Positions 1 to 43,849 of a stretch of DNA of 43,849 bases are shown one piece after another. A program made the translations under genes and the position numbers. The notes beneath the pieces were generated by a model. It was not told the origin of the DNA. It ran no database searches and saw nothing but the letters and a program-made list of their open reading frames with translations. Positions within the stretch are counted from its first letter, which is position 1. Each line of letters begins with the position of its first letter. Source of the stretch: a virus; the IMG/VR virus record IMGVR_UViG_3300037193_001696, positions 1 to 43,849 of that record; one strand, 5' to 3'.

Positions 1-141
1 GCCGATGTTGTCCACCAGCTCGTCCATGCGGTCGACGATTTCCTGTGGCGGGCTGCCCATCTCGCCCAGCTCGGCCAGCTCCCGCCGGTCCGCTTCCGCC
101 CAGTCCTCGTGCGCTTCGGCCTGGGCGGTGTACTCGGTCGC
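1..141. repeat. Left copy of 141-bp terminal direct repeat
   Basis: Identical to 43709-43849. An exact 141-bp overlap at both ends of a contig is typical of de Bruijn assembly of a circular molecule with k=141. It also falls inside one continuous reading frame, which reads through cleanly when the copies are merged. It is therefore read as an assembly overlap, not a biological terminal repeat. Confidence 0.93.
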
Positions 142-207
142 CAGGCCCCGGTAGGTCCGCTCGTCTGCGGACATCACGTCGCTGCTGATCGTCGCCGCGT
201 TGGTCAT
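1..207 (-). CDS. Possible nested product from an internal start
   Basis: Inside the junction-spanning gene, and in the same frame, ATG 207 is preceded by a good ribosome binding site (GGAGGC, 3 nt before the ATG). It would give a soluble acidic protein of about 99 aa (MTNAATISSDVMSADERTYR...), ending at 43616 on the circle. The composition changes here from Arg/Pro-rich to a helical Glu/Ala-rich domain, so the C-terminal domain may also be made alone. An alternative is that this is the true start of a separate gene and the upstream open frame is partly fortuitous. Confidence 0.45.
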   Translation of the reverse strand, partial: MTNAATISSDVMSADERTYRGLATEYTAQAEAHEDWAEADRRELAELGEMGSPPQEIVDRMDELVDNIG

Positions 208-1146
208 CGTGCCTCCATTCCGTCGGTGTGCAGGCCCGTTCGGGAACAGGCCGTCGAGGGGTTCGAAAAAGGTGCGTGGCCACCGGCCCGACCGGACTTC
301 GTCGCCCACCACCGTGGCGGCGCGGTTCCAGCCGTTGAGCCCGCGTTCCCACTGCCGCCGGGCCCACGTGCCGGCGACGGCCCAGTCCGGCGACCAGCGG
401 TCGCGGTTGGGCTTCTTCTTCCTCCAGGCCCGGTCCTTGTCCCGGGCCTTCCTGCGCGCTCGTTCCTTCTTCCCGTACGGCTTCGGCTTCGGCGCGGGAC
501 GACCGGGCCCGCGCGACCGCGACCGGGCCCGGCCTGGCCCGCCGCCCGCGCGGACAGCGGCCCGCGCGGAAGCCGACCGCCGGGCCCGCCGGGAGAACGC
601 GGCGCCCGCCGCCGCGCGTGCCTGCCGGGCCCGGCCCGCGCCCTGTTGCCGGGCCCGGCCCGCTGCGGCACGGGCCCGGTGGGCCGGGCCCGTCACGGCC
701 CGCCGGGCCCGACGCAGGGCCTGCCGGGCCCGGCCCGCAGGCCCGGCCCGGCCCGGCCTGCGGGCCTGCCGGGCCCGGGCCCGGGCCGTACGGCGGGCCC
801 GGTTCCACGGGGCCCATCGGGCCCGGCCCGGCCGGCCCCGGCCCGATGGGCCCGGCCCCGGCCGGGCCCGCTGGCGCCCGGCCTGGCCCGGCCGGGCCCG
901 CCAGGCCCACACGACGACCACGATCACGACGACCGCACCCAGCGCCGCCAGGACCCAGCCCGACCACAGCCACACCGACAGCCCCACCAGCGCCACCAGC
1001 AGCGGCCAGGTCCAGAGCAGCACCTGGCGCCAGTGCCAGCCGTCGACCCGCTCGTCGACGACCTCACCCACACCCCCGTCGACCACCAACGGGGTCGACG
1101 CGAAGACCTCATCGGCGGTGCGGTCCTGGTCGACGGGGGCGCTCAC
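1..1146 (-). CDS. Junction-spanning Spd-like membrane protein, Arg/Ala/Gly/Pro-rich (N-terminal part)
   Basis: The reading frame opens at GTG 1146, overlapping the stop of the upstream SpdB-like gene (GTGA), and has no stop down to base 1. It continues on the circle through 43708 to a TAA at 43616-43618, giving about 412 aa. Residues ~38-78 form two hydrophobic segments rich in Trp, Leu and Val (VLLWTWPLLVALVGLSVWLW, then VLAALGAVVVIVVVVWAW). Next comes a long Arg/Ala/Gly/Pro low-complexity tract (RARPG, RARQ units) and then a normal-looking basic region (KKERARRKARDKD, KKKPNRDRW). The role is inferred from context: it is co-transcribed with SpdB-like and TraB genes, so it is probably a plasmid-spread membrane protein. 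The low-complexity frame was checked codon by codon, and this frame gives the more protein-like ends. I do not recognise a named family. Confidence 0.7.
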   Translation of the reverse strand, partial: MSAPVDQDRTADEVFASTPLVVDGGVGEVVDERVDGWHWRQVLLWTWPLLVALVGLSVWLWSGWVLAALGAVVVIVVVVWAWRARPGQAGRQRARPGPGPSGRGRPGRARWAPWNRARRTARARARQARRPGRAGPAGRARQALRRARRAVTGPAHRARAAAGRARQQGAGRARQARAAAGAAFSRRARRSASARAAVRAGGGPGRARSRSRGPGRPAPKPKPYGKKERARRKARDKDRAWRKKKPNRDRWSPDWAVAGTWARRQWERGLNGWNRAATVVGDEVRSGRWPRTFFEPLDGLFPNGPAHRRNGGTMTNAATISSDVMSADERTYRGLATEYTAQAEAHEDWAEADRRELAELGEMGSPPQEIVDRMDELVDNIG

Positions 1147-1575
1147 TCGGTCGCCCCAACCGGTGCAAGCCGGTCACGGACCGCCTCGACCAGTGGCGTG
1201 CGCATGGTGTGCTGCACGCTGCGGTTCTGCGCCCGCATCGCGTCGAGCAGGTCCCCGCGCGTCCACGTCCCCCGCTCGGCCAGCTGCTGCCGGGCCCACT
1301 CGACGGCGGCCGTCAGCAGCTCGTCGGGGAGGTCGTCCGCCGTGAGCTTCGCGGGCGTGGGCTGCTCCACCGGCTTGAACGGCTGGGTGCGCTCGGCCTC
1401 GGTCTCGGGCCCGGCCCGGCCCGGCCCGGCCTGCTCGTCGGTCTCGGGCCCGGCCCGGCCCGGCCCGGCCTGCTCGTCGGCCTCGGGCCCGGCCCGGCCC
1501 GGCCCGGCCTGCTCGTCGGCCTCGGGCCCGGCCTGCTCGTCAGCGCGGGCCCGGCCCGGCCCGGTCAGGCCCGAG
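490..1575. repeat. GGGCCCGG/GGCCCGGCC-rich repeat tract
   Basis: Dozens of copies of GGGCCCGG or GGCCCGGCCC are spread over about 1 kb, densest at 500-900 and 1405-1575. They cross the boundary between two genes, with a plainer stretch at ~905-1400. On the minus strand they encode Arg/Ala/Gly/Pro-rich segments. The motif is self-complementary (GGGCCC), so the tract can form many small hairpins. It lies in the transfer block, where actinomycete plasmids may carry the short repeats (TRS) bound by TraB. A link to that role is inference only. Confidence 0.75.
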
Positions 1576-2300
1576 GTCGGGCCCGCCAGGCCTACCGTGG
1601 CCAGGCCCGCGTTGATCGTCAGCGCCCACGCGCCGGCGTTGCAGGCCCGCACGAACCGGCGGAGCCGATCGACTGCGATGGCCAGCTTGGGCGTCGTGGG
1701 CGTGGCGGGCGGTTGGACCGCAGCGGGCCGGCGCGGTGCGACCTTCGGCCGGGCGTGGCCTGCCGCGGCTGCGGCAGCCTCGACGGCCTCGGTCAGGCGG
1801 TCGCGCATCTTCGGCCCGGCTTCGGCCGCGAACAGCACCAGCAACGGCGGCACCGAGTGCAGCACCACGCCGCTGGCGCCGTGGCCGTCGTCGATCAACC
1901 TGTGCCAGGACTCCCAGGTGTTCATGGTGTAGGTCGCGGCGAACGTGCCCCACTTGGTGAGTTTGATCCAGTTCAGCAGGCCGTGGGTGGCGCGGGTGCT
2001 GACCTGCCACCGCCCCAGAACCTGCTCACCCAGCAGCAGGCCGATCAGCACCAGGCTGACGATCGGGTCGAGGACCCAAGCCGCCCACCACCCTGGGCTG
2101 TCCTTGTCGAGACCCCGCGCGGCGAAGGCCTGGACGTTGACCATCGTGAACGCCAGGCCGCCCACGATCCCGGTCCAGACCAGCACGTCGCAGACTCGCC
2201 GTACACGCTCGACGTGCAGCGCGACGACGTCCGGGTTGGTGCGGTGCTCCCGCAGCCGCGCGGCGGAGGCCGCCTTCTCGTCGAGGCTCTTCCTGGGCAA
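1143..2300 (-). CDS. SpdB-like plasmid spread membrane protein (DUF2637-like)
   Basis: About 385 aa. The start is taken as TTG 2300, since AGGAGG lies 9 nt upstream and directly follows the stop of the preceding gene. The N-terminal ~190 residues hold several membrane segments (VLVWTGIVGGLAFTMVNVQA, WVLDPIVSLVLIGLLLG, SGVVLHSVPPLLVLFAA) and the GLLNWIKLTKWGTFAATY stretch typical of DUF2637/SpdB2-type proteins of actinomycete plasmids. The middle is Ala/Pro-rich, followed by the 13-residue tandem repeats. The last ~75 residues look like a small DNA-binding helical domain (DLPDELLTAAVEWARQQL, RGDLLDAMRAQNRSVQH). The family is linked to intramycelial plasmid spreading. The gene is translationally coupled to the next gene downstream. 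Confidence 0.8.
   Translation of the reverse strand: MPRKSLDEKAASAARLREHRTNPDVVALHVERVRRVCDVLVWTGIVGGLAFTMVNVQAFAARGLDKDSPGWWAAWVLDPIVSLVLIGLLLGEQVLGRWQVSTRATHGLLNWIKLTKWGTFAATYTMNTWESWHRLIDDGHGASGVVLHSVPPLLVLFAAEAGPKMRDRLTEAVEAAAAAAGHARPKVAPRRPAAVQPPATPTTPKLAIAVDRLRRFVRACNAGAWALTINAGLATVGLAGPTSGLTGPGRARADEQAGPEADEQAGPGRAGPEADEQAGPGRAGPETDEQAGPGRAGPETEAERTQPFKPVEQPTPAKLTADDLPDELLTAAVEWARQQLAERGTWTRGDLLDAMRAQNRSVQHTMRTPLVEAVRDRLAPVGATE
1402..1542 (-). repeat. 39-bp tandem repeat (three full copies and a 24-bp partial)
   Basis: Full units lie at 1402-1440, 1441-1479 and 1480-1518, with a partial unit lacking 15 bp at 1519-1542. On the minus strand each unit encodes a 13-residue DEQAGPGRAGPET/EA repeat within the C-terminal half of the SpdB-like protein. 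Units are nearly identical at DNA level, which suggests recent slippage or selection on the DNA motif itself. Confidence 0.9.
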
Positions 2301-2313
2301 GGTGGTCTTCCTC

Positions 2314-2775
2314 CTAGTCGATCGAACTTGGCGGCGGGGTGGGCAACGACTCGACATCGGCCAGGGCCTGGACGCCGTGCGGGCTGCGCGCCAGCAGCTC
2401 GCCCGCCCAGCGCAGGATCGAGTCCGGGTCGCGGGGGTTGACCTTCCGGGACGCCAGTTGGCCGGCCCAGTGTTCGGCGACCGCCCGCGCCATGTGCCAG
2501 TCGGTGGCCGTCAGCGGCAGATAGCCGACGACCCTGTCCAGGAGCAGCCACAGGGTCATCGCGTGGGTGACCTTGGTGACCAGGTTGCCCTTCGTCTCGG
2601 ACGGGTAGGTGACCGGGAAGATCTCGACGTTGACCTTGCCCACGACCACCGCGATCGAGGGGACGGGGTGGCGCTTGCGGGCGCCTTTGAGCCGCAGGTA
2701 CACCAGCGAGTCGGCGGGGTAGGTGTCGTCGGGGCGCGGCTGGAAGCGGACCAGCTTGTCGGTGGACGTGCTCAT
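2314..2775 (-). CDS. Conserved hypothetical protein of the transfer block
   Basis: About 153 aa starting at ATG 2775, which overlaps the stop of the upstream gene (ATGA). The sequence begins MSTSTDKLVRFQPRPDD and is a mixed soluble protein with no clear membrane span (VPSIAVVVGKVNVEIFPVTY; THAMTLWLLLDRVVGYLPL may be a buried helix). It ends in the AGGAGG that serves the SpdB-like gene. Its position between two membrane proteins in one operon suggests an accessory transfer role. No family recognised. Confidence 0.8.
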   Translation of the reverse strand: MSTSTDKLVRFQPRPDDTYPADSLVYLRLKGARKRHPVPSIAVVVGKVNVEIFPVTYPSETKGNLVTKVTHAMTLWLLLDRVVGYLPLTATDWHMARAVAEHWAGQLASRKVNPRDPDSILRWAGELLARSPHGVQALADVESLPTPPPSSID

Positions 2776-3032
2776 CGACGGCCCCCCGAGCGGTCGCGCC
2801 GCCGGCGACGCCGCCTGACCCACACGGAGTAGGTCGCGCAGGTCAGCACCGACCACAGGACGACGACCCCGCCCATCCAGCGCAGACCGCTGTCGCTGTC
2901 CAGGTCCAGGTCGTCGGCCGTCATCAGCAGGTTGACCAGGCTGGCCACCAGGATCAGCACGGCGATGAGGAAGTACCAGCGGGTGAACCGCTCGTCGGGG
3001 TCGAGGGGGTCGACGCTCGGCCGGCGCCCCAT
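2772..3032 (-). CDS. Small two-span membrane protein, first gene of the transfer block
   Basis: About 86 aa from ATG 3032; a GTG at 3041 would add three residues. It has two hydrophobic helices (WYFLIAVLILVASLVNLLM and GGVVVLWSVLTCATYSVWV) separated by an acidic loop (DDLDLDSDSG), and ends in a very basic tail (RRRRRRRDRSGGRR). The tail would sit in the cytoplasm. It resembles the small Spd membrane proteins of actinomycete plasmids in size and layout only. The 4-bp ATGA overlap with the next gene supports one operon running to TraB. Confidence 0.75.
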   Translation of the reverse strand: MGRRPSVDPLDPDERFTRWYFLIAVLILVASLVNLLMTADDLDLDSDSGLRWMGGVVVLWSVLTCATYSVWVRRRRRRRDRSGGRR

Positions 3033-3116
3033 CACAACCACGCCCGATCATGAACACTCCACGTGTTTGCTTTACTACGCATGGCAAATCCGTCCTTCCG
3101 ACGACGGGTGAGCCAG

Positions 3117-3178: not shown

Positions 3179-3223
3179 TTGATCTGCGTCGGCGCAGATG
3201 TCAATGTCTGAGTCGGCGCAGTT
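3179..3223 (+). promoter_or_regulatory. Promoter and operator of the GntR gene
   Basis: TTGATC at 3179-3184 and CAATGT at 3202-3207 are spaced 17 bp apart. Two copies of TCTGNGTCGGCGCAG start at 3183 and 3207, exactly 24 bp apart. The first forms a perfect dyad (TCTGCG TCGG CGCAGA). The repeats overlap the promoter elements, as expected for autoregulation by a dimeric GntR repressor. That the GntR protein binds here is inference. Confidence 0.6.
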
Positions 3224-3243: not shown

Positions 3244-4062
3244 GTGGAGCGTTACCGGCTAGTAGCCGACGACCTGGAACGGCGGATCGACGCCGGCGAG
3301 TTTCCGCCGGGTGCGCGGTTGCCGTCCTGGCGGTCGTTGCAGGAGAGCTACAACATCAGCAGGACGCTGGTGGGCGAGGCGATGTCCGTGCTCGTCGCGC
3401 GGAACCGCATCCGGGCCAAGGCCCGCTCCGGTGCTTTCGTCCTGCCACCGTCCGCACCCCGCCAGCGCATGGCCATCGGAATGGCCGTGGCCCGCAATGA
3501 GCTGGGCTATCTGTTCAACCAGCACGCCGGGCACTGGCGCCCGCTGGGCCCGCCGACCATCCACCGCGTGCCGTGCCCGGCTGCCGACGACGTCGCCGAG
3601 CTGCTGCACGTCGAGCCCGGTACCGAGGTCGTCGAGCGGCGGCGGGTCGTCGGCATCAGCGAGACCGAGCCCATGCAGATCACCAGCACCTACCTGTCAC
3701 CCGCGCTCGTCGACCAGGCCCCGGTCGTCGCGGACTCCGACACCGGCCCGGGTGGCTGGGTCGAGCGCGTCGAGCAGGACCTGGCGCTGGGACCGGTGTC
3801 CTGGCCCGTCGACGTCATCACCCGGCTACCGACCCGGCGGGAGGCCAGCGACCTGGACATGCCCGAGTCCCAGCCGGTGCTGGTCGAGCTGCGCCTGGTC
3901 CTGCCCGCCGGAGCGGTGGCGGGGGAGGACCCGCCGCTGGCCGCGGAGATCGCCGTACGGGACGGCCGCCGCTGGAAGGTGTCCTACGAGCTGGTGCGCG
4001 ACGAGTCCGCGGCCTGGCCCGTCACCCCGGCCACCGCCCGCAACACCCCGGAACCCCGATGA
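3244..4062 (+). CDS. GntR-family transcriptional regulator (wHTH plus UTRA-like domain)
   Basis: 272 aa from GTG 3244, with AGGAGG 7 nt upstream. Residues ~1-70 are a GntR winged helix (YRLVADDLERRIDAGEFPPG, RLPSWRSLQESYNISRTLVG, then a wing at ARSGAF). Residues ~85-260 match the UTRA/HutC effector fold, with the typical VERRRVVGISETEPMQITSTY segment. In actinomycete conjugative plasmids, GntR proteins of the Kor type repress transfer genes whose unchecked expression is toxic (established). Divergence from the spd/tra operon fits this. It may also control lysogeny. Confidence 0.9.
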   Translation: MERYRLVADDLERRIDAGEFPPGARLPSWRSLQESYNISRTLVGEAMSVLVARNRIRAKARSGAFVLPPSAPRQRMAIGMAVARNELGYLFNQHAGHWRPLGPPTIHRVPCPAADDVAELLHVEPGTEVVERRRVVGISETEPMQITSTYLSPALVDQAPVVADSDTGPGGWVERVEQDLALGPVSWPVDVITRLPTRREASDLDMPESQPVLVELRLVLPAGAVAGEDPPLAAEIAVRDGRRWKVSYELVRDESAAWPVTPATARNTPEPR

Positions 4063-4765: not shown

Positions 4766-6676
4766 ATGCCCCCTGCCGAACGGGTGTCCCCCGAAGCGCA
4801 CGAACCCGCACCCGCGTGCGTCAGCTGCGGCCTGCCGGGCCGGTGGCGACCAGCCCCGCCGGGTGGTCGATCCCTCCCGGTTTGCGACGTTGAGTGGCAG
4901 ATGTCCGGTGGCCTGGACGCCACCGACGACGCCATCGTCCTGCGCGACCCCGACCCCACGTCCTGGGCGCGCGAGTCCGCGGTGGCCTGGGCCGACGACT
5001 GGGAGTCCGGCCGGGTCGTGGCCTGGATGCTCGCTCACGGCGTGCGGTGGTCGCTGCTGCGCTGGATTCGTCCGGATAGCCGATGGGCTTGGTACGAACA
5101 GCTGATCAAGTTGACCCCGCCGCCGGGCACCAGGGCGTGCGTCGAAGGCCGTGAGGTGTGGCTGGACCACGTCGTCGAGGTCATCAGCTCCCAGCCCTGG
5201 CAGAAGCGCCGCAAGGACAAGTGGCTGGCCATCGCCCACGCCATCGCCTACGCCGTGCCGCTGCACGGCGGCGCGATCACCCGGGACGGCTGCACCTACC
5301 CCGAGCTGGCCGAGGCCGCCGGCTGCTGCCTGGACTACGTCGCGGACATCGTGGAGTGGTTCGTCCAGGCCGGCCTGCTGCACATCGTGGTGCCCGGCAC
5401 CCGCAAGAAGCCGATGCCCCAGCCCGAGGACGAGACGCCCGAGGAAGCCGCGGCCAGGGAGGCCTACGAGCAGCGCCTGGCCGCCCACACCGAGGCCCGG
5501 GCCGAAGAGCTGAAGCGGGCCAAGGCCCAGCTGCGGGAGCAGATCAACGACGAGATGCGCACCGGCGCCATCGTCGTCCAGCTGGACCCGTTCCGGGACA
5601 CCGTGCCCGCGCCCGAGCTGCCCCCGTCCCACAAGGGGGAGTGGATCAACGTGGCGCAGGTGTACCAGCTGCGGCTACCCGCACCCCCTGAACCCTCCGA
5701 GCTGCCCGCCGAAGCGTGGGGCAGGCCCAAGGTGGCCAGCCTGGGGAAGGCCCGTCAGCGTCGCGCACAGCGCCGGCGCGGCACCCTCACGCGCAAGGCC
5801 GTGCAGCCGGGGCGCACGGCGGCTCTACCAGGGCAGACGGAAAATTCCAGCCCCAACGCTGATCATCTAGAAAGAGATCGTCCATGCAGTTCCAGCGCGG
5901 TTGTGGAGAAACGAGCGGCTTCGCCGCGCTCAGACGAAGGAGCGTCAGGGCAAAGCGGGGGTTCGAAACGTACCAGCCGACCCGGTTCACGCGTCGTACG
6001 TGCAGCTCAGCGCCTGTTGGGCGTGTCCCAGAGTGGGCACGGCATGCCCTCGGGTCGGTACGAGCGGCTACCCCTGTCGCTGCGCGGGGTGGGGGTGGCC
6101 TGGCTGGCCCGCCGCATCGCGCCGTACGTGGTGGCCGGCTGGACCGATGAGCAGCTGGTGCAGCTCATCGCCTACGACAGCGGTCGCAAGCCGTCCTGCC
6201 CGCCGGACATCCCCAACCCACGCGGGTTCGTGGTCAACGCGCTGCGCAGGCAGGCACCCAGCGTGCCGTTCCGCTCGGCCGCCGAGACCGACGAGCTGCG
6301 CCAGGCCGTCGACGTCGAGGTCACCAGGAACGACGACGCGCAGCAGCTGCGCGAGCAGAACGCCCGGCGGATCGCCCGCCTGGTGGCCGCCGCGGCCGAC
6401 TGCGACCAGTGCGACGACGAGGGGTTCCGCCAGATCACCGGCCCGCGCGGACACCTGGTCGTCCAGCGCTGCACCCACGACGAACCCGAACCCCAGCCCG
6501 AGCCGACCGAACCGAAGCCACCCGCGTCCGACGAGTTCCGCGAGCGGCTGATGGCCCAGGCCCGCGCCGCCGACGAACGCCGACGTGCGGCGGCGGCAGC
6601 CGCCGGTGAACCCCGGCCACGTCGCAAGCCCGGCCGGCGCATCCGCCTGGCGCCAGGGCGGTACTGGAAGCGGTGA
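4766..6676 (+). CDS. Putative plasmid-type replication initiator
   Basis: 636 aa from ATG 4766; the ribosome site is weak. Cys18, Cys21 and a Cys near 40 suggest a zinc site. Residues ~150-215 look like a winged helix (YAVPLHGGAITRDGCTYPEL, then DYVADIVEWFVQAGLLHIVV). Residues ~225-280 are a charged coiled coil. Residues ~430-505 are a second helical domain (VAWLARRIAPYVVAGWTDEQ). A CDQC...CTH motif lies near 546-571 and the C-terminus is basic. The layout and context resemble Rep proteins of actinomycete integrative plasmids (RepAM-like), but I cannot confirm homology. No other replication gene is present, which supports the role. Residues ~350-420 are atypical in composition (see the candidate origin). 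Confidence 0.6.
   Translation: MPPAERVSPEAHEPAPACVSCGLPGRWRPAPPGGRSLPVCDVEWQMSGGLDATDDAIVLRDPDPTSWARESAVAWADDWESGRVVAWMLAHGVRWSLLRWIRPDSRWAWYEQLIKLTPPPGTRACVEGREVWLDHVVEVISSQPWQKRRKDKWLAIAHAIAYAVPLHGGAITRDGCTYPELAEAAGCCLDYVADIVEWFVQAGLLHIVVPGTRKKPMPQPEDETPEEAAAREAYEQRLAAHTEARAEELKRAKAQLREQINDEMRTGAIVVQLDPFRDTVPAPELPPSHKGEWINVAQVYQLRLPAPPEPSELPAEAWGRPKVASLGKARQRRAQRRRGTLTRKAVQPGRTAALPGQTENSSPNADHLERDRPCSSSAVVEKRAASPRSDEGASGQSGGSKRTSRPGSRVVRAAQRLLGVSQSGHGMPSGRYERLPLSLRGVGVAWLARRIAPYVVAGWTDEQLVQLIAYDSGRKPSCPPDIPNPRGFVVNALRRQAPSVPFRSAAETDELRQAVDVEVTRNDDAQQLREQNARRIARLVAAAADCDQCDDEGFRQITGPRGHLVVQRCTHDEPEPQPEPTEPKPPASDEFRERLMAQARAADERRRAAAAAAGEPRPRRKPGRRIRLAPGRYWKR
5835..6010. other. Candidate replication origin inside rep
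   Basis: This stretch is clearly less GC-rich than its surroundings (GGAAAATTCC, GATCATCTAGAAAGAGATC). It encodes Ser-rich residues without evident fold and contains a strong hairpin (GAGCGGCTTCGCCGCGCTC). In the AICE pSAM2 the origin is associated with the rep region (established). Equivalence here is inference. Confidence 0.35.
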
Positions 6677-6693
6677 GTTCACCCGGATGTGCT

Positions 6694-6730
6694 ATTAGCT
6701 GGATTAGCTGAATTGGCTAGATTGGTCGCT
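6694..6730 (+). promoter_or_regulatory. Leaderless-type promoter built on 9-bp repeats
   Basis: Four 9-bp units start at 6694, 6703, 6712 and 6721 (ATTAGCTGG, ATTAGCTGA, ATTGGCTAG, ATTGGTCGC). TTAGCT (6695-6700) and TAGATT (6718-6723) could serve as -35 and -10 with 17-bp spacing. Transcription would then start at or next to ATG 6731, which lacks a Shine-Dalgarno site. The repeats are plausible operators for the encoded Phd-like protein. Confidence 0.5.
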
Positions 6731-7159
6731 ATGCGTCAGGTAGACAGCACCACCGCCAAGAACACGTTCGGCGCGGTCGTGGACGCCACGATGGCGTCGG
6801 GCGAGCCGATCGAGATAACGCGCGGCCGCGGCGGCAACCCCCGCCCGGTCGCCGTGCTGCTCAGCACCAGCCTGTACCAGGCCCAGCAGGAAGAACGGGC
6901 CGACCTCGAACGCGCCGTCACCGAGCTGCGGCATCAAGTGGTCCGCCTGGCCAACGTCATCACCGACGACTACGACACCGACTTCTGGCCCCGGACCACC
7001 GTCGACCAGGTCCGCGAGCTGGTCGACGAGCTGGTCATCAAGTCCGTCCACCAGGTCGTCGACCAGACCATCCACAAGCGGATGACGACCGGTTCGGCCG
7101 CAGAGACGCGCCCGCATGCGCGTCCCCGCGGCACCTCCCAGTTGCCCGAGGAGAGCTGA
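6731..7159 (+). CDS. Phd/YefM-like antitoxin-domain protein without an obvious toxin
   Basis: 142 aa if started at ATG 6731; a GTG at 6689 in the same frame would add 14 residues made of the 9-bp repeat. The N-terminal ~60 residues match the Phd/YefM DNA-binding fold (VDSTTAKNTFGAVVDATMAS, RPVAVLLSTSLYQ). The remainder is helical and acidic (VDQVRELVDELVIKSVHQVV), where Phd proteins carry the toxin-binding segment. Neither following gene resembles a Doc, RelE or PIN toxin, so this may be a stand-alone regulator or an orphan maintenance protein. The next gene follows after 3 bp. Confidence 0.65.
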   Translation: MRQVDSTTAKNTFGAVVDATMASGEPIEITRGRGGNPRPVAVLLSTSLYQAQQEERADLERAVTELRHQVVRLANVITDDYDTDFWPRTTVDQVRELVDELVIKSVHQVVDQTIHKRMTTGSAAETRPHARPRGTSQLPEES

Positions 7160-11256: not shown

Positions 11257-12411
11257 GTGGCTCTGCGCACCCTGCACATCCGGATCACCCACGACGACCA
11301 GGTCACCGCCGCCAAGGGCAAGGTGGTCTTCCGGTCGGACGACGCGCTGCGCGACAGCGCAGGCAACCTGATCCACGGGCCCGTCTACAAGGTCGCCAAG
11401 CTGGCCGCCGGCGAAGCCACCGTGCAGCTGCCCGCGTGCGACGACCCCGCCTACAGCCCGTCCGGCTGGACCTACACCGTCACCGTCGACACCGACGCCT
11501 GGCAGGACCGCTTCCAGCTGTCCATCCCCTCGGCCGGCAGCGGCACGCTGGAGTTCGCCGACCTGGCCCCCGCGACCACCCCGACCACCGTGGCCACCTA
11601 CTCGCTGCTGGGCCACACCCACGACAACGTCTCCGACCACGGCGGCCTGACCGGCCTGGCCGACGACGACCACCCGCAGTACCTCACCAACGCCCGCGGC
11701 GACCTGCGCTACCAGCCGCTGGACGGCGACCTGACCGCGATCGCCGCGCTGGCCCCGGCCAACGACGACATCGTCCAGCGCAAGGCCGGCGCGTGGACCA
11801 ACCGGACCCTGGCGCAGCTCAAGACCGACCTGGCGATCACCAAGACCGACGTCGGCCTGGGCAACGCCGACAACACCAGCGACGCCGCCAAGCCCATCTC
11901 CACCGCCACCCAGACCGCGCTCGACGGCAAGGCCACCAAGCCCGCCGTCCGCCGCGCCACCATCACGTCCGGGAACATCCCGATCCCCGACACCGGCGGG
12001 TTCCCGGGCAGCAACTGGACCATCCTCACCGCCGCCGGTGAGCTGGTCGTGCCCGCGGCCGTGGGCGACCACATCGAGGTCAACTACAACGGCCTGCGCG
12101 AGGGATACACCGAGTGGGGCATGGACCTGGCCGTGGTCAAGGGCAGCGGGCCCACCACGATCCAGCGCTACCTGTCCAGCGACAGCGGCACCCCCAGCGC
12201 CGCTGGCGACCCGGGCCAGTACCCGGGCGACGCCAGCTTCCAACCCCACGCCGGCGCCCTGGACCTGGTCGTCGAAGCCGCCGACCGGGACGGCGCCAAC
12301 GTCCGCATCGCCATCGTGGTCGTCAGCAGCGCGGTGGGCACCCGCACGCTGCGCGCCACGCCCAGCTACCCGTTCCGCTGGTGGACCAAGAACAACGGCC
12401 CGTACCTGTAA
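11257..12411 (+). CDS. Tail-fibre-like protein located upstream of the terminase
   Basis: 384 aa from GTG 11257. Residues ~120-155 carry the fibre motif GLADDDHPQYLTNARGDLRY, common in phage tail fibre and collar proteins. Next comes VGLGNADNTSDAAKPISTAT, the repeat seen in many fibre shafts. The C-terminal ~130 residues are beta-rich (EWGMDLAVVKGSGPTTIQRY) and may form a receptor-binding head. In most siphovirus genomes such genes follow the tape measure, so the location is unusual. It may be an adhesin or decoration protein rather than a tail-tip fibre. Confidence 0.75.
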   Translation: MALRTLHIRITHDDQVTAAKGKVVFRSDDALRDSAGNLIHGPVYKVAKLAAGEATVQLPACDDPAYSPSGWTYTVTVDTDAWQDRFQLSIPSAGSGTLEFADLAPATTPTTVATYSLLGHTHDNVSDHGGLTGLADDDHPQYLTNARGDLRYQPLDGDLTAIAALAPANDDIVQRKAGAWTNRTLAQLKTDLAITKTDVGLGNADNTSDAAKPISTATQTALDGKATKPAVRRATITSGNIPIPDTGGFPGSNWTILTAAGELVVPAAVGDHIEVNYNGLREGYTEWGMDLAVVKGSGPTTIQRYLSSDSGTPSAAGDPGQYPGDASFQPHAGALDLVVEAADRDGANVRIAIVVVSSAVGTRTLRATPSYPFRWWTKNNGPYL

Positions 12412-13342: not shown

Positions 13343-13687
13343 ATGCCACCCCTGCGCCCCTGCCTGGGCCTGCGCGACAAGCCCTGTGGCCGCCTCACAC
13401 CCGAGTCGCGGTGTCCCCGCTGTGCGACGGCCCTGGCATCCATGAGGACCCGCCAGAAGCGCGCACAGCGCCCGTACGGCCGCGCCGAGCTGGAACGCCG
13501 CGCGGCAGCGGTCGCCGAGTGGATCGCACAGCACGGCTACTGGTGTCCCGGCTGGGGCGTGCCCCAGCACCAGGACGCAGACCTGACCGCCGACCACGTC
13601 ATCCCCGTGGCCGCCGGTGGGCCCGAGGACGGGCCGCTGACCGTTTTGTGCCGCAGCTGCAATGGACGCAAAGGGAAACGCGAGTGA
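13343..13687 (+). CDS. HNH endonuclease
   Basis: 114 aa from ATG 13343. The N-terminus has a CxxC knuckle (CGRLTPESRCPRC), and the C-terminus has the HNH core: CPGWG, then TADHVIPVAAGGPEDGPLTV and LCRSCNGRKG. The DH pair and the CxxCN motif match the family. HNH proteins beside the terminase are needed for cos cleavage or packaging in several siphoviruses (established). Location just before the candidate cos and terminase fits this. Confidence 0.9.
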   Translation: MPPLRPCLGLRDKPCGRLTPESRCPRCATALASMRTRQKRAQRPYGRAELERRAAAVAEWIAQHGYWCPGWGVPQHQDADLTADHVIPVAAGGPEDGPLTVLCRSCNGRKGKRE

Positions 13688-14514: not shown

Positions 14515-14610
14515 GTTATGTGACCCCGCTGAAGGGTGCCTTTTCCGCTGTACGGGTCCGGGAGTTTTCGGCCCCCGGGCCGCGTGATGATCGAGTAGCG
14601 GAGGGTGATC

Positions 14611-29454: not shown

Positions 29455-31761
29455 GTGCCCATCGCCACCATCGTCGAGTGCGCCTTCGGGTCGTTGCCGC
29501 TGGCGGCCAGTCCGACCTGGACCGACATCACCCGCTACGTCGACATGGGCGACGAGATCACCATCCAGCGCGGCGCGGCCGACGAGCTGGAAGAGATCCC
29601 GGGCGGGACGCTGACGTTCACCCTGGACAACAGCGACGCCCGGTTCACCCCCGGCCTGGCCAGCAGCCCGTACTACCCGAACGTGCGCAAGGGCGTCCGC
29701 ATCCGGGTGCGCCAGGTCCACGTCCACGCCAACTACTGCCTCAACGGCGGGTTCGAGTCGGCCGCGGTCACCGACTGGGCCGCGTTCGGCTCGACCCCGC
29801 CGACGCTGTCCGCCTCGACCACCCACGCGCACGAGGGCACCTACGGGATGCGGATCGTGTGGGCCACCGGCACCACCGCCAACGGCGCCCAGACCACGCT
29901 CTACGGCTTGCAGGTCGGCCGGCAGTACACCGCGAGCGCCTGGGTGTGGGTCACCGGTGGCGCCACTGCGGTACGGCTCGGTGTGTCCGGCATCGCCACC
30001 GGCACGGCGTCGTCGACCACCGGCGCGTGGCAGCAGATCAGCTACACGTGGACCGCCACCGCCACCAGCCACGTCGTGCAGGTGACACCGGCGGCCGGCA
30101 CCACGTCGGGCCACGACGTGTGGGTCGACGAGGTCATGGTGGCCGAAGGCACGGCGGTGGCCACCTACGACGCCACCGCGCCGCTGATCTCCGCGCGGTT
30201 CAACGGTTTCGTGAACAGGTGGCCGGTGTCCTGGCCCGGCGGCCACAAGGTCGCGCGGTCCCGGATGACCGCCACCGACCTGTTCAAGCCGTTGACCCGC
30301 CGCCAGTTGCGGTCGGCGTTGGAAGAGGAAGTGCTGATCGACGGGCCGCTGGCCTACTACCCGTTGTCGGAACCCGCCGGCTCGACTTCGGCCGGCGACC
30401 TGTCCGGCACCGTGGGCGGATCGCTCGCGGTGACCGGCACTGGCGGTGAGCTGACCTTCGCCGCGGGGACGGGCCCGGGTGCGGACGGCCTGTCCTGCCC
30501 GGTGTTCGCGCCCAGCTCATCGACGGTCGGCCAGTACCTGCTTTCCGACATGGGCAGCGACTTCGAGATCGCCTCGGTCGACGGGTTCATCCGCATCGAA
30601 GCCTGGTTCTCCACAACGGTGACCGGTCGTGTGCTGCTGGCGATGCGGACGGTCGACGCCATGACACCGGCACGGCTGGCGATCCAGCTCGAAACGGGCA
30701 CCGGCAAGCTGCAAATGGTGTGGTCGATAGGCGAGATCGTGTCCCCCACGACGTCCACCTGGGCCACCGCGAACCTGGCGGACGGCGAGGTGCACCACGT
30801 TGTGTACGACGAGCAGGACGGCCGGATCTACATCGACGGCGTCTCCCAGGGCACGCAGAGCCGCCTGGTGATGCGCCGGCTGCGGCGGCTCAGCGTCGGC
30901 TCGGACTTCGGGACCGGGTACTGGGACGGCGGCATCTCGCACGTCGCGGTCTACACCTCGTGGTCCGACCTGGCCGCCCGGACCGCCACCCACTACGACG
31001 CGGGTACCACCGGAATCGAAGCCGAAGCCGCCGACGACCGGCTTGCACGGCTGGCCGGGTACGCCGGTGTCACCCTCACCACCGAGGGCACCCTGTTCGA
31101 CCCGGTCGCCAACCAGGGCGGCGGCGGGAAGTCGGCGCTGGCCCTGATGCGGGAGATCAGCAACAGCGAGTCCGGCCGGCTGTTCGCCGACCGCGCGGAC
31201 GGGCTGCGCTACCAGTCCCGCGACGTCCGCTACGCCCCGGCCAGTGCGGTGACCCTGGACGCCGCGGACTGCGGACCGCCGGTGTACGCCGACGACGACC
31301 AGTTCTTGATCAACCGGGTCGACGCCAGCCGCCCCGGCGGCGCGCTGATCCGTGTCGAGGACACCGAGTCGCAGGGCTACTACTTCGTCTACCCCAAGAC
31401 GTTGAGCCTGTTCAAAGCTTCCGACGCGGCAGTGGTCGACGCCGCCCAGTGGATGATCAACCGCTACGCCGACCCCGCGCCGCGGATCTCCGCCGTCGAG
31501 GTCGAGGGCGCGACGCTGGGCACCACCACCTACCGGGCGCTGCTCGGGCTGGAGATCAGCGACGCGTTCACCGTCACCGGCCTGCCCAGCCAGGCCCCGT
31601 CGACCAGCGAGCTGCTGACCGTCGAGGGCTGGCGCGAAGTGATCGGGCCCGAACACCACACGTGGGTGTTCAACACCTCCCCCGCGCTCGTCGACCAGGT
31701 CTGGTCGCTCGACTCGTCCACCCGCTCGCAGCTGGACGACACCACCCGGCTCGCCTACTGA
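29455..31761 (+). CDS. Minor tail protein with LamG-like domain
   Basis: 768 aa from GTG 29455, with GGGAGGGGAC upstream. The N-terminus (SPTWTDITRYVDMGDEITIQ, RGAADELEEIPGGTLTFTLD) is the distal-tail-type start seen in actinophage minor tail proteins. Residues ~90-240 form a carbohydrate-binding-like domain (YCLNGGFESAAVTDWAAF). Residues ~285-515 include a concanavalin/LamG-like domain (GFIRIEAWFSTTVTGRVLLA, VHHVVYDEQDGRIYIDGVSQ). The C-terminal third resumes the tail-hub pattern. Likely tail tip and host surface contact. Confidence 0.8.
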   Translation: MPIATIVECAFGSLPLAASPTWTDITRYVDMGDEITIQRGAADELEEIPGGTLTFTLDNSDARFTPGLASSPYYPNVRKGVRIRVRQVHVHANYCLNGGFESAAVTDWAAFGSTPPTLSASTTHAHEGTYGMRIVWATGTTANGAQTTLYGLQVGRQYTASAWVWVTGGATAVRLGVSGIATGTASSTTGAWQQISYTWTATATSHVVQVTPAAGTTSGHDVWVDEVMVAEGTAVATYDATAPLISARFNGFVNRWPVSWPGGHKVARSRMTATDLFKPLTRRQLRSALEEEVLIDGPLAYYPLSEPAGSTSAGDLSGTVGGSLAVTGTGGELTFAAGTGPGADGLSCPVFAPSSSTVGQYLLSDMGSDFEIASVDGFIRIEAWFSTTVTGRVLLAMRTVDAMTPARLAIQLETGTGKLQMVWSIGEIVSPTTSTWATANLADGEVHHVVYDEQDGRIYIDGVSQGTQSRLVMRRLRRLSVGSDFGTGYWDGGISHVAVYTSWSDLAARTATHYDAGTTGIEAEAADDRLARLAGYAGVTLTTEGTLFDPVANQGGGGKSALALMREISNSESGRLFADRADGLRYQSRDVRYAPASAVTLDAADCGPPVYADDDQFLINRVDASRPGGALIRVEDTESQGYYFVYPKTLSLFKASDAAVVDAAQWMINRYADPAPRISAVEVEGATLGTTTYRALLGLEISDAFTVTGLPSQAPSTSELLTVEGWREVIGPEHHTWVFNTSPALVDQVWSLDSSTRSQLDDTTRLAY

Positions 31762-32678: not shown

Positions 32679-33590
32679 TTGGCACTCTGCCCCTTCGCAC
32701 GCCACCGCCTGATCCCGGAGAGCTACAGCCAGGGCCGGATCAACCCGCGCGTGCTGATCTTCCACCAGGCCGTCAGCACGGCCGAATCCCTCTACGGCTA
32801 CTGGACTTCCCCCGGCGTCGAGCTGGAGTCGCACTTCTACGTCTACAAGGACGGGTCGCTGGACCAGTACGTCGACACCGAGGTCCGGGCCGACGCCAAC
32901 GTCGAGGCCAACGGCTTCGCGGTCAGCGTCGAGACCTGGGACAACGGTGGCAGCGACGAGCCCTGGACCGACGCCCAGCTGGCCACGCTCACCCGCCTGG
33001 CCGCCTGGGTCTCCGAGGTGCACGGCATCCCGGCCGTCGTGCCGTCCGGCCCGTACGGGTCCGGCATCGGCTGGCACAACCTCTACCCCGACGAGTGGGC
33101 CGGCGGACCCCGCGCCTGCCCCGGCAACCACCGCATCGCCCAGGTGCGCAACCACATCATCCCCACCGTGGCCGCCGGCGGCGGCTGGCAGGAGGAAGAC
33201 ATGCAGGCCGACGAGCGCGCCGCCCTGTTCCGCATCAAGGAGATCCTTGAGGTCTTCAACAAGGGCGCCACCAAGCGACTGCCCGCGGGCTGGGGCATCG
33301 ACATGTTCGCCCAGTTCCTGTACGAGGCCGTCATCTCGATGCACCGCCACGGGTTCAAGCCGATGGCCGAGGGCGCCCTGGGCGGCGACCTCAGCTGGTT
33401 CGACACCAAGCTGACCGACGCCCTGTCCAAGTCGGACAAGGCCGTGCTGGACGGCGTGGCCCGCATCGTCGAGGCCCACCAGACCCAGGTCGAGCTGACC
33501 CCCGAGCAGGCCCAGACCCTGTTCGACGCCTTCCCGCCCGTGGTCGCCCAGGCCCTGCGCGACGCTGCCGCGCGCGTGGCCACCGGCTGA
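32679..33590 (+). CDS. Endolysin: N-acetylmuramoyl-L-alanine amidase
   Basis: 303 aa from TTG 32679, with GAGGTGATC upstream. Residues ~20-160 are a PGRP/amidase_2 fold with zinc-ligand candidates His29 (LIFHQAV), a His near 130 (GIGWHNLYP) and one near 146 (ACPGNHRI). The last ~130 residues form a helical cell-wall-binding or oligomerisation region (DERAALFRIKEIL ... TPEQAQTLFDAFPPVVAQAL). It cuts peptidoglycan between sugar and peptide at lysis. Confidence 0.88.
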   Translation: MALCPFARHRLIPESYSQGRINPRVLIFHQAVSTAESLYGYWTSPGVELESHFYVYKDGSLDQYVDTEVRADANVEANGFAVSVETWDNGGSDEPWTDAQLATLTRLAAWVSEVHGIPAVVPSGPYGSGIGWHNLYPDEWAGGPRACPGNHRIAQVRNHIIPTVAAGGGWQEEDMQADERAALFRIKEILEVFNKGATKRLPAGWGIDMFAQFLYEAVISMHRHGFKPMAEGALGGDLSWFDTKLTDALSKSDKAVLDGVARIVEAHQTQVELTPEQAQTLFDAFPPVVAQALRDAAARVATG

Positions 33591-33636: not shown

Positions 33637-33954
33637 GTGCTGAACTTCCTGGTGTCGGTGGTCCGCACCGGCGTGCCCTACCTGTGGGGTGCGCTCGTCG
33701 CGTGGCTCACCGCCCGCGGCCTGGGCGCCGACGTCGTCGCGGTCATCGACGACCCGCAGTGGCAGGGCGCGGTGTCCGCCGCCCTGATCACCGTCGTCAC
33801 CACCGCGGTGTACGTGGTGGTCCGCCTGATCGAACAGAACCTGCCGCGCCTGCTGACGCGCTTCCTGCCGGACAACGTGGTCGACACCGTGACCAAGCTG
33901 CTGCTGGTGCTGCTCATCGGCGTGCCACGGGAACCGAGCTACACCAAGCCCTGA
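33637..33954 (+). CDS. Putative holin
   Basis: 105 aa from GTG 33637, with AAGGAG upstream. Two or three hydrophobic helices (PYLWGALVAWLTARGL, AVSAALITVVTTAVYVVVRL, VTKLLLVLLIGVP). It directly follows the endolysin and precedes the late terminator, the usual holin place. The sequence resembles uncharacterised actinophage membrane proteins annotated as holins. Confidence 0.65.
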   Translation: MLNFLVSVVRTGVPYLWGALVAWLTARGLGADVVAVIDDPQWQGAVSAALITVVTTAVYVVVRLIEQNLPRLLTRFLPDNVVDTVTKLLLVLLIGVPREPSYTKP

Positions 33955-34068: not shown

Positions 34069-34305
34069 ATGGCCCGATCCCCCGGCCGCCCGCGTGCCGC
34101 CACGCCGGCCAACATCGACAGCGCGACCAAGGCCGAAGTCGCCATGCTGCTGTCCTGCTCGGAACGCCACGTCGAACGGCTCATCGACCGCGGCGAGCTG
34201 GAAGCGTGGAAGTCCGGCCGCGCCGTGCGCGTGTGGCTGCGCTCGGTCCTCAGCTACCAGGAAGCCAACCGCGTCCTACCGGTGTCCCCGCTCGGTTCGA
34301 ACTAG
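34069..34305 (+). CDS. Excisionase-like HTH protein
   Basis: 78 aa from ATG 34069, with GAAGGA upstream. The core ATKAEVAMLLSCSERHVERL-IDRGELEAWKSGRAVRV matches the HTH_17/MerR-like fold of excisionases and small regulators. It could direct excision with the integrase encoded 3.7 kb downstream, or act as an early regulator. It has its own gap on both sides, so it is probably a single-gene unit. Confidence 0.7.
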   Translation: MARSPGRPRAATPANIDSATKAEVAMLLSCSERHVERLIDRGELEAWKSGRAVRVWLRSVLSYQEANRVLPVSPLGSN

Positions 34306-37811: not shown

Positions 37812-37994
37812 GTGGATCTTGAAAAGGACGGCCCACGCCAGCGGGAAGTCGTGGCGCGGCTGGCGGGCGGCATCGCCGACATGTTCATCCGCCACGCGAA
37901 CAACCGGCCCGACGACCAGCAGGCCCAGCAGGCGGCCAACGAAGCCACGGACCGCGCCGCCGCCGTGCGGCGGGAACTGCTGGACGAGTCGTGA
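37812..37994 (+). CDS. Small acidic/helical protein upstream of integrase
   Basis: 60 aa from GTG 37812. A single helical, charged domain (REVVARLAGGIADMFIRHAN, AANEATDRAAAVRRELLDES). Overlaps the integrase start by 4 bp. No family recognised. Confidence 0.6.
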   Translation: MDLEKDGPRQREVVARLAGGIADMFIRHANNRPDDQQAQQAANEATDRAAAVRRELLDES

Positions 37995-39157
37995 CCAGCG
38001 TCCAGGACGACGGCCAGGTGATCGAGGCCGAGCTGGTCGACGACGAGCGGACCGCGGGCAACCTGCCCGCGGTCCCCGCGCAGCAGCGCTCCGACGACGG
38101 CCTGGTCCTCAGCGACGAAGCGCACCGGCTGATCGCCGCGAGCATCCCGCCGACGACCCAGCGCGCCTACACCCGCTACCTGTACGGGCGGGTGGTGCGC
38201 ACGACGGAGGACGGCCGCACGGTGGAAGACAACGGCCCGGCCGTCCACCCGTGGCCCGAGGTGGCCTGGGTGCCGTGGTGCCTGCGCACCGGCCGCCAGT
38301 CGGGGATCGACGGCCCGGCCACCGGCGTGGACTTCGCCGAGTGGGTCACCGAGCTGGTGCGCCGGGAGATGGGCGCCCCGACCATCGAGCAGGCCCGCGC
38401 CGCGGTGCGGTGGCTGCACGACATGCACCACCACCAGGACCTGCCGCCAGGCAAGCTGGCGGGCCGGGTGCTGGCCGGCTACCGGGCGTTGGGCGCGGGC
38501 AAGGCCCAGCAGCAGGCCAACGCGATGACGCCCAGGGTGGTGCGTCGCATCCTGGTGGCGATGGACGAGCAGCGGCCGGACCTGCCGCTGCTCAACCAGC
38601 GGGACAAGGTGATGCTGCTGCTGGGCGTGCCCGGGATGCTGCGGCGCAGCGAGCTGGTCGACATGCTGCTGGACCACGTGCGCGTCGAGGACCGCGGCCT
38701 GGACGTCTTCCTGCCCAAGAGCAAGACCGACAAGCTGGGCAAGGGCGCGACGATCAGCATTCCGCAGGGCCGGCACCCCGAGACGTGCGCCAAGACCCAG
38801 TTCCTGATCTGGAAGGGGATGCTGGCCGAACACGGGCTGACCGATGGCGGCCAGCACGTCATCTGCTCGGTGGTCCGGCACGGCCGCGGGCGCCGCGAAC
38901 GGCTCGTCGGCCGCCAGCTCGACGGCCGGGACGTCGACCGCGCGGTCAAGCGCCTGGTGGTGCTCGCCGGTGAAGAGGTCGCGGGCTGGTCGGCGCACAG
39001 CCTGCGCGCCGGCGGCGCGACCGCCGCGGCCGAGGGCGGCGCGGACCTTAAAGAGATCATGGACCAGGGCCGGTGGATCTCCCCGGCCACCGCGCTGCGC
39101 TACATCCGGCGTGCCCACCGGTGGACCCAGAACGCCGCAACCAAGATCGACCTGTGA
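37991..39157 (+). CDS. int: Tyrosine-family site-specific integrase
   Basis: 388 aa from GTG 37991, coupled to the preceding gene. The SAM-like N-terminal DNA-binding region contains ASIPPTTQRAYTRYLYG. The catalytic domain shows the first Arg in GMLRRSELVDM (~215-220), the box HSLRAGG (His336, Arg339), Trp362 in place of the usual His, and nucleophile Tyr371 (ALRYIRR). It would integrate the circle at a host attB and, with an excisionase, excise it. An attP is expected nearby but no clear tRNA-type core is visible. Confidence 0.9.
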   Translation: MTSVQDDGQVIEAELVDDERTAGNLPAVPAQQRSDDGLVLSDEAHRLIAASIPPTTQRAYTRYLYGRVVRTTEDGRTVEDNGPAVHPWPEVAWVPWCLRTGRQSGIDGPATGVDFAEWVTELVRREMGAPTIEQARAAVRWLHDMHHHQDLPPGKLAGRVLAGYRALGAGKAQQQANAMTPRVVRRILVAMDEQRPDLPLLNQRDKVMLLLGVPGMLRRSELVDMLLDHVRVEDRGLDVFLPKSKTDKLGKGATISIPQGRHPETCAKTQFLIWKGMLAEHGLTDGGQHVICSVVRHGRGRRERLVGRQLDGRDVDRAVKRLVVLAGEEVAGWSAHSLRAGGATAAAEGGADLKEIMDQGRWISPATALRYIRRAHRWTQNAATKIDL

Positions 39158-39290: not shown

Positions 39291-39307
39291 TTGCTCCGAA
39301 CGAGTGG

Positions 39308-40694: not shown

Positions 40695-41065
40695 GACCCG
40701 AAGTGTCTCCGCCGCGCGTCCCGCACGGCGTTGATCGACACGGCCGCGTTCATCACCTCGTCGTACACGCGGAGGATGCCGGGCGCGCCCATGCTGTCCA
40801 GCACACGCTGGTCGCACTGCGCCAGCAGGTTCTTCGCGCTGTCGTACAGCTCCCGGTTGTGGCCGTGGTCGGAGATCGCCTGGCCCGCGACCACCAGCAG
40901 CATCCGCACCATCTGCTGGGCCGGGGTCTCCCCGCTGTCCCGGGAGTCCGCGCCCACCCGCTCGACCATCGCCTGGACGTCGGCCAGGCCCGCGCGGCCG
41001 CGCGCGTGCAGCCGGACCGCGGAGGTCAGCTCGTCCAGCCACGTCACCGTGGCGTCGGCCGTCAT
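40691..41065 (-). CDS. Hypothetical helical protein in the transfer block
   Basis: 124 aa from ATG 41065 (ATGA with the upstream stop). All-helical and charged (TVTWLDELTSAVRLHARG, VRMLLVVAGQAISDHGHNRE). Soluble; coupled to genes on both sides. Function unknown. Confidence 0.7.
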   Translation of the reverse strand: MTADATVTWLDELTSAVRLHARGRAGLADVQAMVERVGADSRDSGETPAQQMVRMLLVVAGQAISDHGHNRELYDSAKNLLAQCDQRVLDSMGAPGILRVYDEVMNAAVSINAVRDARRRHFGS

Positions 41066-41379
41066 GACCGCATCGCCGGCGTGCGCGCGGTGGTGCTCGC
41101 CGATCGCTGTTCGTGGCGGCGGACCTGGACCAGGACGGCGACGAAGACCAGGGCCATGATCGGCCCGAGGATGCCGTACAGCAGCCACGTGCCTTGCCAC
41201 TTGCCCGCGCCGGCGAACGCTCCGCCGGCCATCCAGACCCACAGCGGGACCTGCTGCACCTGCCACCGGGGGCCGCTGAACATCGGCGTGCCCGGTCGCC
41301 GGAACGCCCAGAGCACCAGCAGCGCGACGCCCGCCCACACGGCCAGCGTCCCGAGCATGGTCTGTGCTTCCCCGGTCAT
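41062..41379 (-). CDS. Three-span membrane protein downstream of TraB
   Basis: 105 aa from ATG 41379, chosen because GGAGAGGGGAAG lies just upstream. Three hydrophobic segments (MLGTLAVWAGVALLVLWAF, VPLWVWMAGGAFAGAGKW, LLYGILGPIMALVFVAVLVQ) precede a basic C-terminus. Small membrane proteins beside traB in actinomycete plasmids are linked to spreading (Spd); equivalence here is by context. Confidence 0.7.
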   Translation of the reverse strand: MTGEAQTMLGTLAVWAGVALLVLWAFRRPGTPMFSGPRWQVQQVPLWVWMAGGAFAGAGKWQGTWLLYGILGPIMALVFVAVLVQVRRHEQRSASTTARTPAMRS

Positions 41380-41408
41380 GTCGCTTCCCCTCTCCGTTCG
41401 TTCCCGGT

Positions 41409-41488
41409 CACTCACTCACACACTCACCCGTGCCCACACCCGCGTATGCGCAGGTAGGGGCACGTGTGTGAGTGTGTGAGTGAGTCAC
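41409..41488. repeat. GT-rich inverted repeat overlapping the end of traB
   Basis: ACTCACTCACACACTCAC (from 41410) is inverted as GTGAGTGTGTGAGTGAGT (to 41485), followed inward by a second matched pair (CGTGCCC / GGGCACG). The arms alternate purine-pyrimidine and contain GTGAGT/GTGTGT repeats. It separates traB from the next gene. It may be a terminator, or a transfer site (clt) since TraB-binding sites lie near traB in related plasmids. Confidence 0.75.
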
Positions 41489-43548: not shown

Positions 43549-43570
43549 GACGATTCCTCCTACGGGATCG

Positions 43571-43608
43571 AGCGGGGGGACCACGCCAGCCCGCGTGGTC
43601 CCCCCGCT
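43571..43608 (-). terminator. 16-bp hairpin between the Spd-like gene and traB
   Basis: AGCGGGGGGACCACGC pairs perfectly with GCGTGGTCCCCCCGCT over a 6-nt loop. It starts 7 bp past the stop of the junction-spanning gene and 22 bp before the traB start. It may limit transcription into traB, whose overexpression is toxic in related plasmids (Kil phenotype, established). Confidence 0.8.
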
Positions 43609-43615
43609 GCTGGGG

Positions 43616-43849
43616 TTAGTTGGCGGGTTCGCCTGCCGCCGCGCGGTCGGCCATCTCCGCCGCCGCACGCGCCTTGCCGCGCCATTCCGCTTCCGCCTCG
43701 ACGTGCTTGCCGATGTTGTCCACCAGCTCGTCCATGCGGTCGACGATTTCCTGTGGCGGGCTGCCCATCTCGCCCAGCTCGGCCAGCTCCCGCCGGTCCG
43801 CTTCCGCCCAGTCCTCGTGCGCTTCGGCCTGGGCGGTGTACTCGGTCGC
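43616..43849 (-). CDS. C-terminal end of the junction-spanning Spd-like gene
   Basis: Same frame as the gene at 1-1146; bases 43709-43849 duplicate 1-141. The end of the protein (DELVDNIGKHVEAEAEWRGK, then AEMADRAAAGEPAN and TAA at 43616-43618) is acidic and helical. Merging the two copies gives one uninterrupted reading frame of about 412 codons. Confidence 0.8.
   Translation of the reverse strand, partial: ATEYTAQAEAHEDWAEADRRELAELGEMGSPPQEIVDRMDELVDNIGKHVEAEAEWRGKARAAAEMADRAAAGEPAN
43709..43849. repeat. Right copy of 141-bp terminal direct repeat
   Basis: Exact copy of bases 1-141. Removing one copy gives a circle of 43,708 bp. Confidence 0.93.

Follow-up and report, generated by a model that had tools for sequence, protein, structure and literature searches.

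Phages and conjugative elements are commonly credited with one route of spread each. The DNA analyzed here (IMG/VR virus record IMGVR_UViG_3300037193_001696, 43,849 nucleotides, hereafter the window) raises the question of whether a virus can make use of two, as a full particle gene set and a plasmid-type operon for the transfer of double-stranded DNA are combined on a 43.7-kb circle of a virus infecting actinobacteria. An earlier note on the sequence had interpreted the window as a siphovirus joined to an AICE-type transfer and replication module.

Gene content of the circle

The last 141 bp of the window (43709-43849) are an exact copy of positions 1-141 and the window was thus regarded as a circle of 43,708 bp. 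Besides an extrachromosomal form, excised or packaged DNA could also have given rise to such a circular contig. The circle comprises siphovirus virion and lysis genes, genes for an excisionase (Xis) and an integrase (Int), a Rep-like gene and a GntR regulator gene with a divergent TraB/FtsK operon (Table 1). Virion genes were called with PHROGs, while lysin, integrase and GntR regulator were called with Pfam; the two latter matches bear out the integrase as one of the tyrosine type and the regulator as a GntR/UTRA protein. The set of virion and lysis genes is complete, with the holin assigned by size and place; its sole PHROG match is a family of unknown function. All large genes of the virion and transfer modules are open. 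Among the window proteins scanned, no polymerase, primase or helicase families were detected, which agrees with the earlier note, and ParAB proteins were not found in the window.

Table 1. Positions of genes and candidate sites in the window
Feature	Position	Strand	Basis or remark
Spd-like gene, first part	1..1146	-	position and layout
tra-operon membrane protein, 404 aa, 3 TM	1143..2357	-	50% identity to a G187 protein
Small membrane protein, tra operon gene 1	2772..3041	-	counterpart at equivalent Lentzea position
Candidate GntR operator, two palindromes (CTGCGTCGGCGCAG and CTGAGTCGGCGCAG)	3183..3221		5' of GntR gene
GntR/UTRA regulator, divergent from tra operon	3244..4062	+	Pfam; Lentzea homologue 52%
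Rep-like gene, presumed plasmid replication initiator	4766..6676	+	distant plasmid relatives
Phd/YefM-type antitoxin-like gene	6689..7159	+	family-model match
Tail fibre-like protein	11257..12411	+	PHROGs
HNH endonuclease, 5' of terminase genes	13343..13687	+	PHROGs
Putative small terminase	14605..15204	+	position; PHROG 226
Large terminase (TerL)	15690..17366	+	PHROGs
Portal protein	17445..19112	+	PHROGs
Head protease-major capsid (MCP) fusion	19575..21932	+	PHROGs
Head-tail adaptor	22781..23734	+	PHROGs
Major tail protein	24509..25516	+	PHROG 290 ("minor tail protein"); role by position
Tape measure protein	26715..29423	+	PHROGs
Tail/virion structural protein	29455..31761	+	PHROGs
Amidase_2 endolysin	32679..33590	+	PHROGs and Pfam
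Holin-like small membrane protein	33637..33954	+	size and place, 3' of lysin; 62% identical in Lentzea
Excisionase-like protein (Xis)	34069..34305	+	PHROGs
Tyrosine integrase	37991..39157	+	Pfam
Small membrane protein 3' of traB	41062..41415	-	last gene of tra operon
Candidate clt, inverted 16-mer pair	41407..41488		directly 3' of traB stop
traB, FtsK/TraB-type DNA translocase, 727 aa	41485..43668	-	exact start uncertain; approximately 50 bp overlap with upstream gene as called
Spd-like gene, last part	43616..43849	-	crosses circle join

The Rep-like protein matched no Pfam or NCBIfam model. Its relatives are encoded by actinobacterial plasmids and, in one genome (G218), next to a TraB gene. 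The designation as a plasmid-type Rep is therefore backed by these relatives but not by a family model, and a function as a plasmid replication initiator is presumed from distant plasmid homologues. The AICE Rep families are RepSA, RepAM and Prim-pol (PMC3218068). For RepAM (DUF3631) and Prim-pol, no Pfam match was obtained with the Rep-like protein and the other non-virion proteins scanned, while RepSA has no Pfam model. As none of these families was found and all relatives of the Rep-like protein are of plasmid type, the proposed AICE-type replication module is unsupported. The window shares the Int/Xis module with AICEs; a tRNA-type attP was not detected, as neither a tRNA gene nor a T-arm-like match is present within the window. 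Like AICEs and Streptomyces conjugative plasmids (pSAM2, pIJ101, pJV1), the window possesses a tra operon that encodes an FtsK-like Tra protein and would be under GntR control, but those elements lack virion genes.

The transfer operon

The tra operon lies on the minus strand and spans the join of the circle. It encodes, in this order, a small membrane protein, a 404-aa protein, a 412-aa protein, a 727-aa P-loop ATPase (TraB) and another small membrane protein. The term SpdB-like, used previously for proteins of this operon, fits the 404-aa protein in so far as a homologue (E=1e-37) exists in a locus (G187) with TraB and GntR genes in which no phage genes were detected, while the 412-aa gene bears the name by its position only; its product reveals two TM segments, an R/K-rich basic linker and a C-terminal coil. 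BLASTP comparison of the 404-aa protein with its counterparts in the plasmids pAmyja1 and pGBA129-24a gave no significant match, its homologues being found elsewhere.

TraB is characterized by N-terminal TM segments, a Walker A (GVGKS) and a Walker B (LDEA) motif and a predicted C-terminal winged helix. On its own, the protein matched no Pfam or NCBIfam model and did not reach PF01580. By tblastn (1e-5), no match was obtained in phage records, while among plasmids only pGBA129-24a and pAmyja1 were hit, both of which are complete siphovirus phage-plasmids. A family profile built from window-like TraBs, with known Tra proteins excluded, found FtsK/SpoIIIE structures (4nh0, E=2.6e-9; FtsK 2iuu, 1e-4). 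Comparison by hhalign yielded values of 3.5e-12 for pJV1 TraB, 3e-8 for pZL12.71c and 8e-7 for pIJ101 Tra, compared to about 0.5 for the controls, TerL (0.48) and shuffled Tra. The possibility that TraB is a packaging ATPase, which the earlier note had named as an objection, was rejected due to this control and the presence of TerL as a separate gene. Judged by these profile comparisons, the ATPase of the operon belongs with the plasmid Tra/FtsK proteins, apart from the terminases. For the last 88 residues of TraB, a winged-helix topology was predicted (pLDDT 68) and a Foldseek search of the PDB with this model gave mostly winged-helix domains as top matches, none of them individually significant. 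AlphaFold modelling of full-length TraB (four sequences) reached a pLDDT of 42 and was not used.

Candidate cis-acting sites

TraB proteins require a cis site, clt. Directly behind the traB stop codon, the 16-mer TCACTCACACACTCAC occurs as an exact inverted pair, both in the window and in a related circle of Lentzea sp. NBRC 102530 (see below). The pair is absent elsewhere in either circle, and the 15-mer core of the sequence was found in 0 of 200 dinucleotide shuffles of each circle. It has been kept although the two TraB proteins share only 36% identity. In another TraB locus (G133), TCACTCAC repeats are located at the corresponding place behind traB, and a plasmid (G079) contains a different repeat (TTGTTTG) there. 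A search of viral_contigs with the clt pattern gave no exact match. The proven clt of pWTY27 sits at this position relative to traB (PMC3583192), and the winged-helix domain of Streptomyces TraB binds to 8-bp repeats (PMC3583192; PMC4170104). The inverted TCACTCAC repeats behind traB are, by position and sequence, candidates for clt. The traB gene of a Nocardioides phage encodes no winged helix and is not followed by such repeats, suggesting that some TraB copies are possibly non-functional.

A second candidate site precedes the GntR gene, whose position resembles that of korA, korSA and traR. The Lentzea circle contains a palindrome pair (CTGCGGTACCGCAG) that matches the one of the window at the equivalent place, with matching spacing and the linker CGCAGATGTCAA common to both. 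This arrangement is what might be expected of the operator of an autoregulator.

Relatives and TraB phylogeny

The Lentzea contig (NZ_BSTF01000034) was found by a TerL-based genome search. It has 42,988 bp with a terminal repeat of 127 bp, corresponding to a circle of 42,861 bp, and originates from a cultured isolate. Genes for Int, TraB, GntR, Rep, HNH endonuclease, TerL, portal, MCP, adaptor, tape measure, Xis and holin are arranged in nearly the same order as in the window, at protein identities of 61% (TerL), 55% (MCP), 52% (GntR), 42% (Int) and 36% (TraB). Both circles represent one phage family with one composite architecture and have the candidate clt and operator in common, but in Lentzea the tail fibre gene has moved, and distal tail and small genes differ. 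The only TraB match of the Lentzea genome sits on this circle. The Lentzea relative thus keeps both modules. Contig G001, a relative from a metagenome, shares the gene order of the window between Rep and Int, and both of its ends fall where the transfer region would be, which can be explained by the GC-rich, repetitive nature of this stretch in the window. TraB together with a related TerL was also detected on a 69-kb circular contig of Nocardioides.

A search with the TraB profile (E<=1e-10) in 299 whole genomes of the Lentzea family gave matches in 18 of them. Phage genes and TraB share a contig in six: Lentzea, G042, Amycolatopsis japonica (pAmyja1), G017, G120 and G012. G120 and G012 contain pZL12-like virion genes, for G012 by a single short match. 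In G042, TerL, portal and MCP are 51-61% identical to those of the window, with the TraB operon approximately 20 kb away. Other loci, without detected phage genes, are plasmid-like (G079 with ParA; G178 with ParA/ParB-like genes) or possess, as G133, a KorA-like GntR protein 47% identical to that of pIJ101; plasmid and AICE labels were assigned by eye from gene content. Prauserella and Nocardiopsis harbor related phages, but their genomes gave no TraB match at the sensitivity of this search, and the operon would thus be dispensable for the phage. A TraB scan of genome_contigs with a four-row alignment produced no confirmed match.

In a maximum-likelihood tree, the TraBs of the window and Lentzea were paired (100/99) within a clade of six (100/100) that also includes those of the G079 plasmid, G133 and G178. 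A second phage clade is formed by pAmyja1, pGBA129-24a and G042. Since phage and plasmid TraBs are interspersed, the tra module moves between phages and plasmids. G042, which combines window-like virion genes with the other TraB type, indicates separate histories of the two modules.

Discussion

We consider it probable that the window is the genome of a temperate siphovirus of actinobacteria that has taken up a TraB-type operon for double-stranded DNA transfer. In the lysogen, it would persist at least in part as an extrachromosomal circle kept by the Rep-like protein, and Int and Xis would make its integration possible. If Streptomyces plasmids are taken as a guide, the GntR protein may act as a repressor both of the divergent operon and of its own expression. 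Upon derepression, hexamers of TraB would form on the TCACTCAC repeats that follow traB and, assisted by the Spd-like membrane proteins, drive the circle without prior processing into a neighboring cell or across mycelial septa, while induction of the virion genes would lead to infectious particles. Dual transmission, by virions and by mycelial transfer, is a likely inference.

A joining of phage and plasmid or AICE sequences during assembly might be suspected, as the window is a metagenomic contig with an extremely GC-rich and repetitive tra region, and as contig G001 is broken at this region. As regards the architecture, this explanation was rejected and its probability is close to nil, for a separate assembly, made from a pure Lentzea culture, gave a circle with the same modules, bridging the borders at which chimeric joins had been proposed (near 10.1-10.8, 34.0 and 40.3 kb), and the closed plasmids pAmyja1 and pGBA129-24a have an equal architecture. 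A different view is that the phage uses the FtsK/TraB-like protein for its own needs, for instance in prophage segregation across septa or into spores or in DNA entry, and that the protein does not mediate horizontal transfer. The recurrence of the operon in several phages, the Nocardioides copy deprived of the DNA-recognition domain and the lack of detected ParAB in the window would fit such a role. On the other hand, plasmids with ParA and without detected phage genes (G079, G178) carry TraBs of this clade together with such membrane proteins, and GntR control, Spd-like genes and clt-like repeats constitute the anatomy of a transfer operon, so that we regard this view as rather unlikely.

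Even less probable is that the window represents a decaying phage-plasmid cointegrate, in which one module has lost its function and a single route of spread is left. The tra genes diverge fast, the operon was lost or never present in some relatives, and phage-plasmids have been reported to turn into plasmids or prophages (PMC10879196). However, every large gene is open in both modules, and the Lentzea element retains both at 30-60% protein identity, indicating that they were kept over a long divergence. The interpretation as a temperate phage with an acquired transfer operon is hence preferred.

The earlier note named no well-described phage-plasmid carrying a complete TraB/Spd set. This is superseded by pZL12/phage ZL12 (GQ919031; Zhong et al. 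2010, J Bacteriol 192:3747), a Streptomyces plasmid-phage which, according to papers citing it, has tra genes of its own. Like the window, pZL12 is a circular replicon with virion genes whose operon comprises genes for a GntR protein, a membrane protein (398 aa), a large basic protein (766 aa) and an FtsK-like protein (725 aa); the combination of GntR, two large membrane or basic genes and an FtsK-like Tra is present in the window as well. Unlike the window, pZL12 has a size of 90 kb (window: 43.7 kb) and possesses ParAB, and its TraB is only distantly related to that of the window (E=6e-5) and falls into another clade. In 2020, pZL12 was classed as a singleton, with no other temperate actinophage outside cluster A being extrachromosomal (PMC7157519), although pSLE1 closely resembles it (PMC4487206). 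Plasmid-phages such as pFP4 are said to conjugate and also to form particles (PMC4170104). With pZL12 as a precedent, the window stands for a new lineage within a pattern that recurs, and not for a new category; the combination of a virion gene set and a tra operon is also seen in other actinobacterial viruses. What the analysis adds are the conserved candidate clt, the conserved candidate operator of the regulator and the recurrence in other phages.

Whether actinobacterial temperate phages repeatedly swap a complete TraB/Spd/GntR/clt cassette with conjugative plasmids and AICEs, and thus form a widespread, mostly unrecognised group of viruses spreading both by virions and by mycelial transfer of double-stranded DNA, is in our estimation evenly balanced. 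Standard models would miss them, since neither PF01580 nor the "plasmid_TraB" model detects their TraB. The AICE survey relied on PF01580, and the phage-plasmid literature examined treats relaxases and oriT, but not TraB. The TraB family is broader than present models detect. With a compact genome, a transfer operon and a conserved candidate cis site at hand, dual transmission can be put to the test in Lentzea sp. NBRC 102530, a non-model strain available in culture.

Two annotated plasmids deserve mention in this context, pAmyja1 of A. japonica (92.5 kb) and pGBA129-24a of Actinoalloteichus (59 kb). Both contain a complete siphovirus set including terminase, portal, tape measure and lysis genes, and a TraB homologue with 26% identity to that of the window, belonging to the sister clade. 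As in the window, the GntR gene of pAmyja1 is divergent from an operon with the order membrane protein-X-TraB. Unlike the window, pGBA129-24a encodes its own DnaB-type helicase and SSB, and the integrases of both plasmids differ from that of the window. These two closed plasmids, regarded as "non-mobilizable", are virus genomes with transfer genes.

TraB operons on plasmids and TraB variants

A complete siphovirus gene set together with a TraB operon was found on two closed plasmids, pGBA129-24a of Actinoalloteichus (loci L004/L006) and pAmyja1 of Amycolatopsis japonica (L007/L008), both of which were typed as non-mobilizable. The phage-borne TraB of the Nocardioides circle (479 aa) does not possess the winged helix at its C-terminus, and its gene is not followed by clt-like repeats. 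Genome G042 harbors, in addition to a phage-linked TraB, a second TraB fragment that is broken and lies close to the contig start.

Sequence features of the window

Coordinates of the described features
Feature	Position
GGCCC-rich part of the Spd-like gene	window 0.60-0.91 kb
39-bp tandem repeats	window 1399-1533
CG run and direct repeat	window 4276-4327
Antitoxin-like gene	window 6689-7159
Palindrome array	window 39305-39374
Nocardioides circle TraB	L026:14837-16276
TraB fragment L052	G042:C1:3223-3836

Upstream of the Rep-like gene, an alternating CG run and the direct repeat ATCGTTCTTG were identified which possibly constitute a replication origin. The region from int to the next gene contains an array of three palindromes (type TTGAACCCTGGGGTTCAA) that may represent an operator or iterons. 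No recognised toxin adjoins the Phd/YefM-type antitoxin-like gene. The 404-aa tra membrane protein contains a linker of the (DEQAGPGRAGPE) type, which is encoded by three near-identical repeats arranged in tandem, and part of the Spd-like gene is extremely GGCCC-rich.
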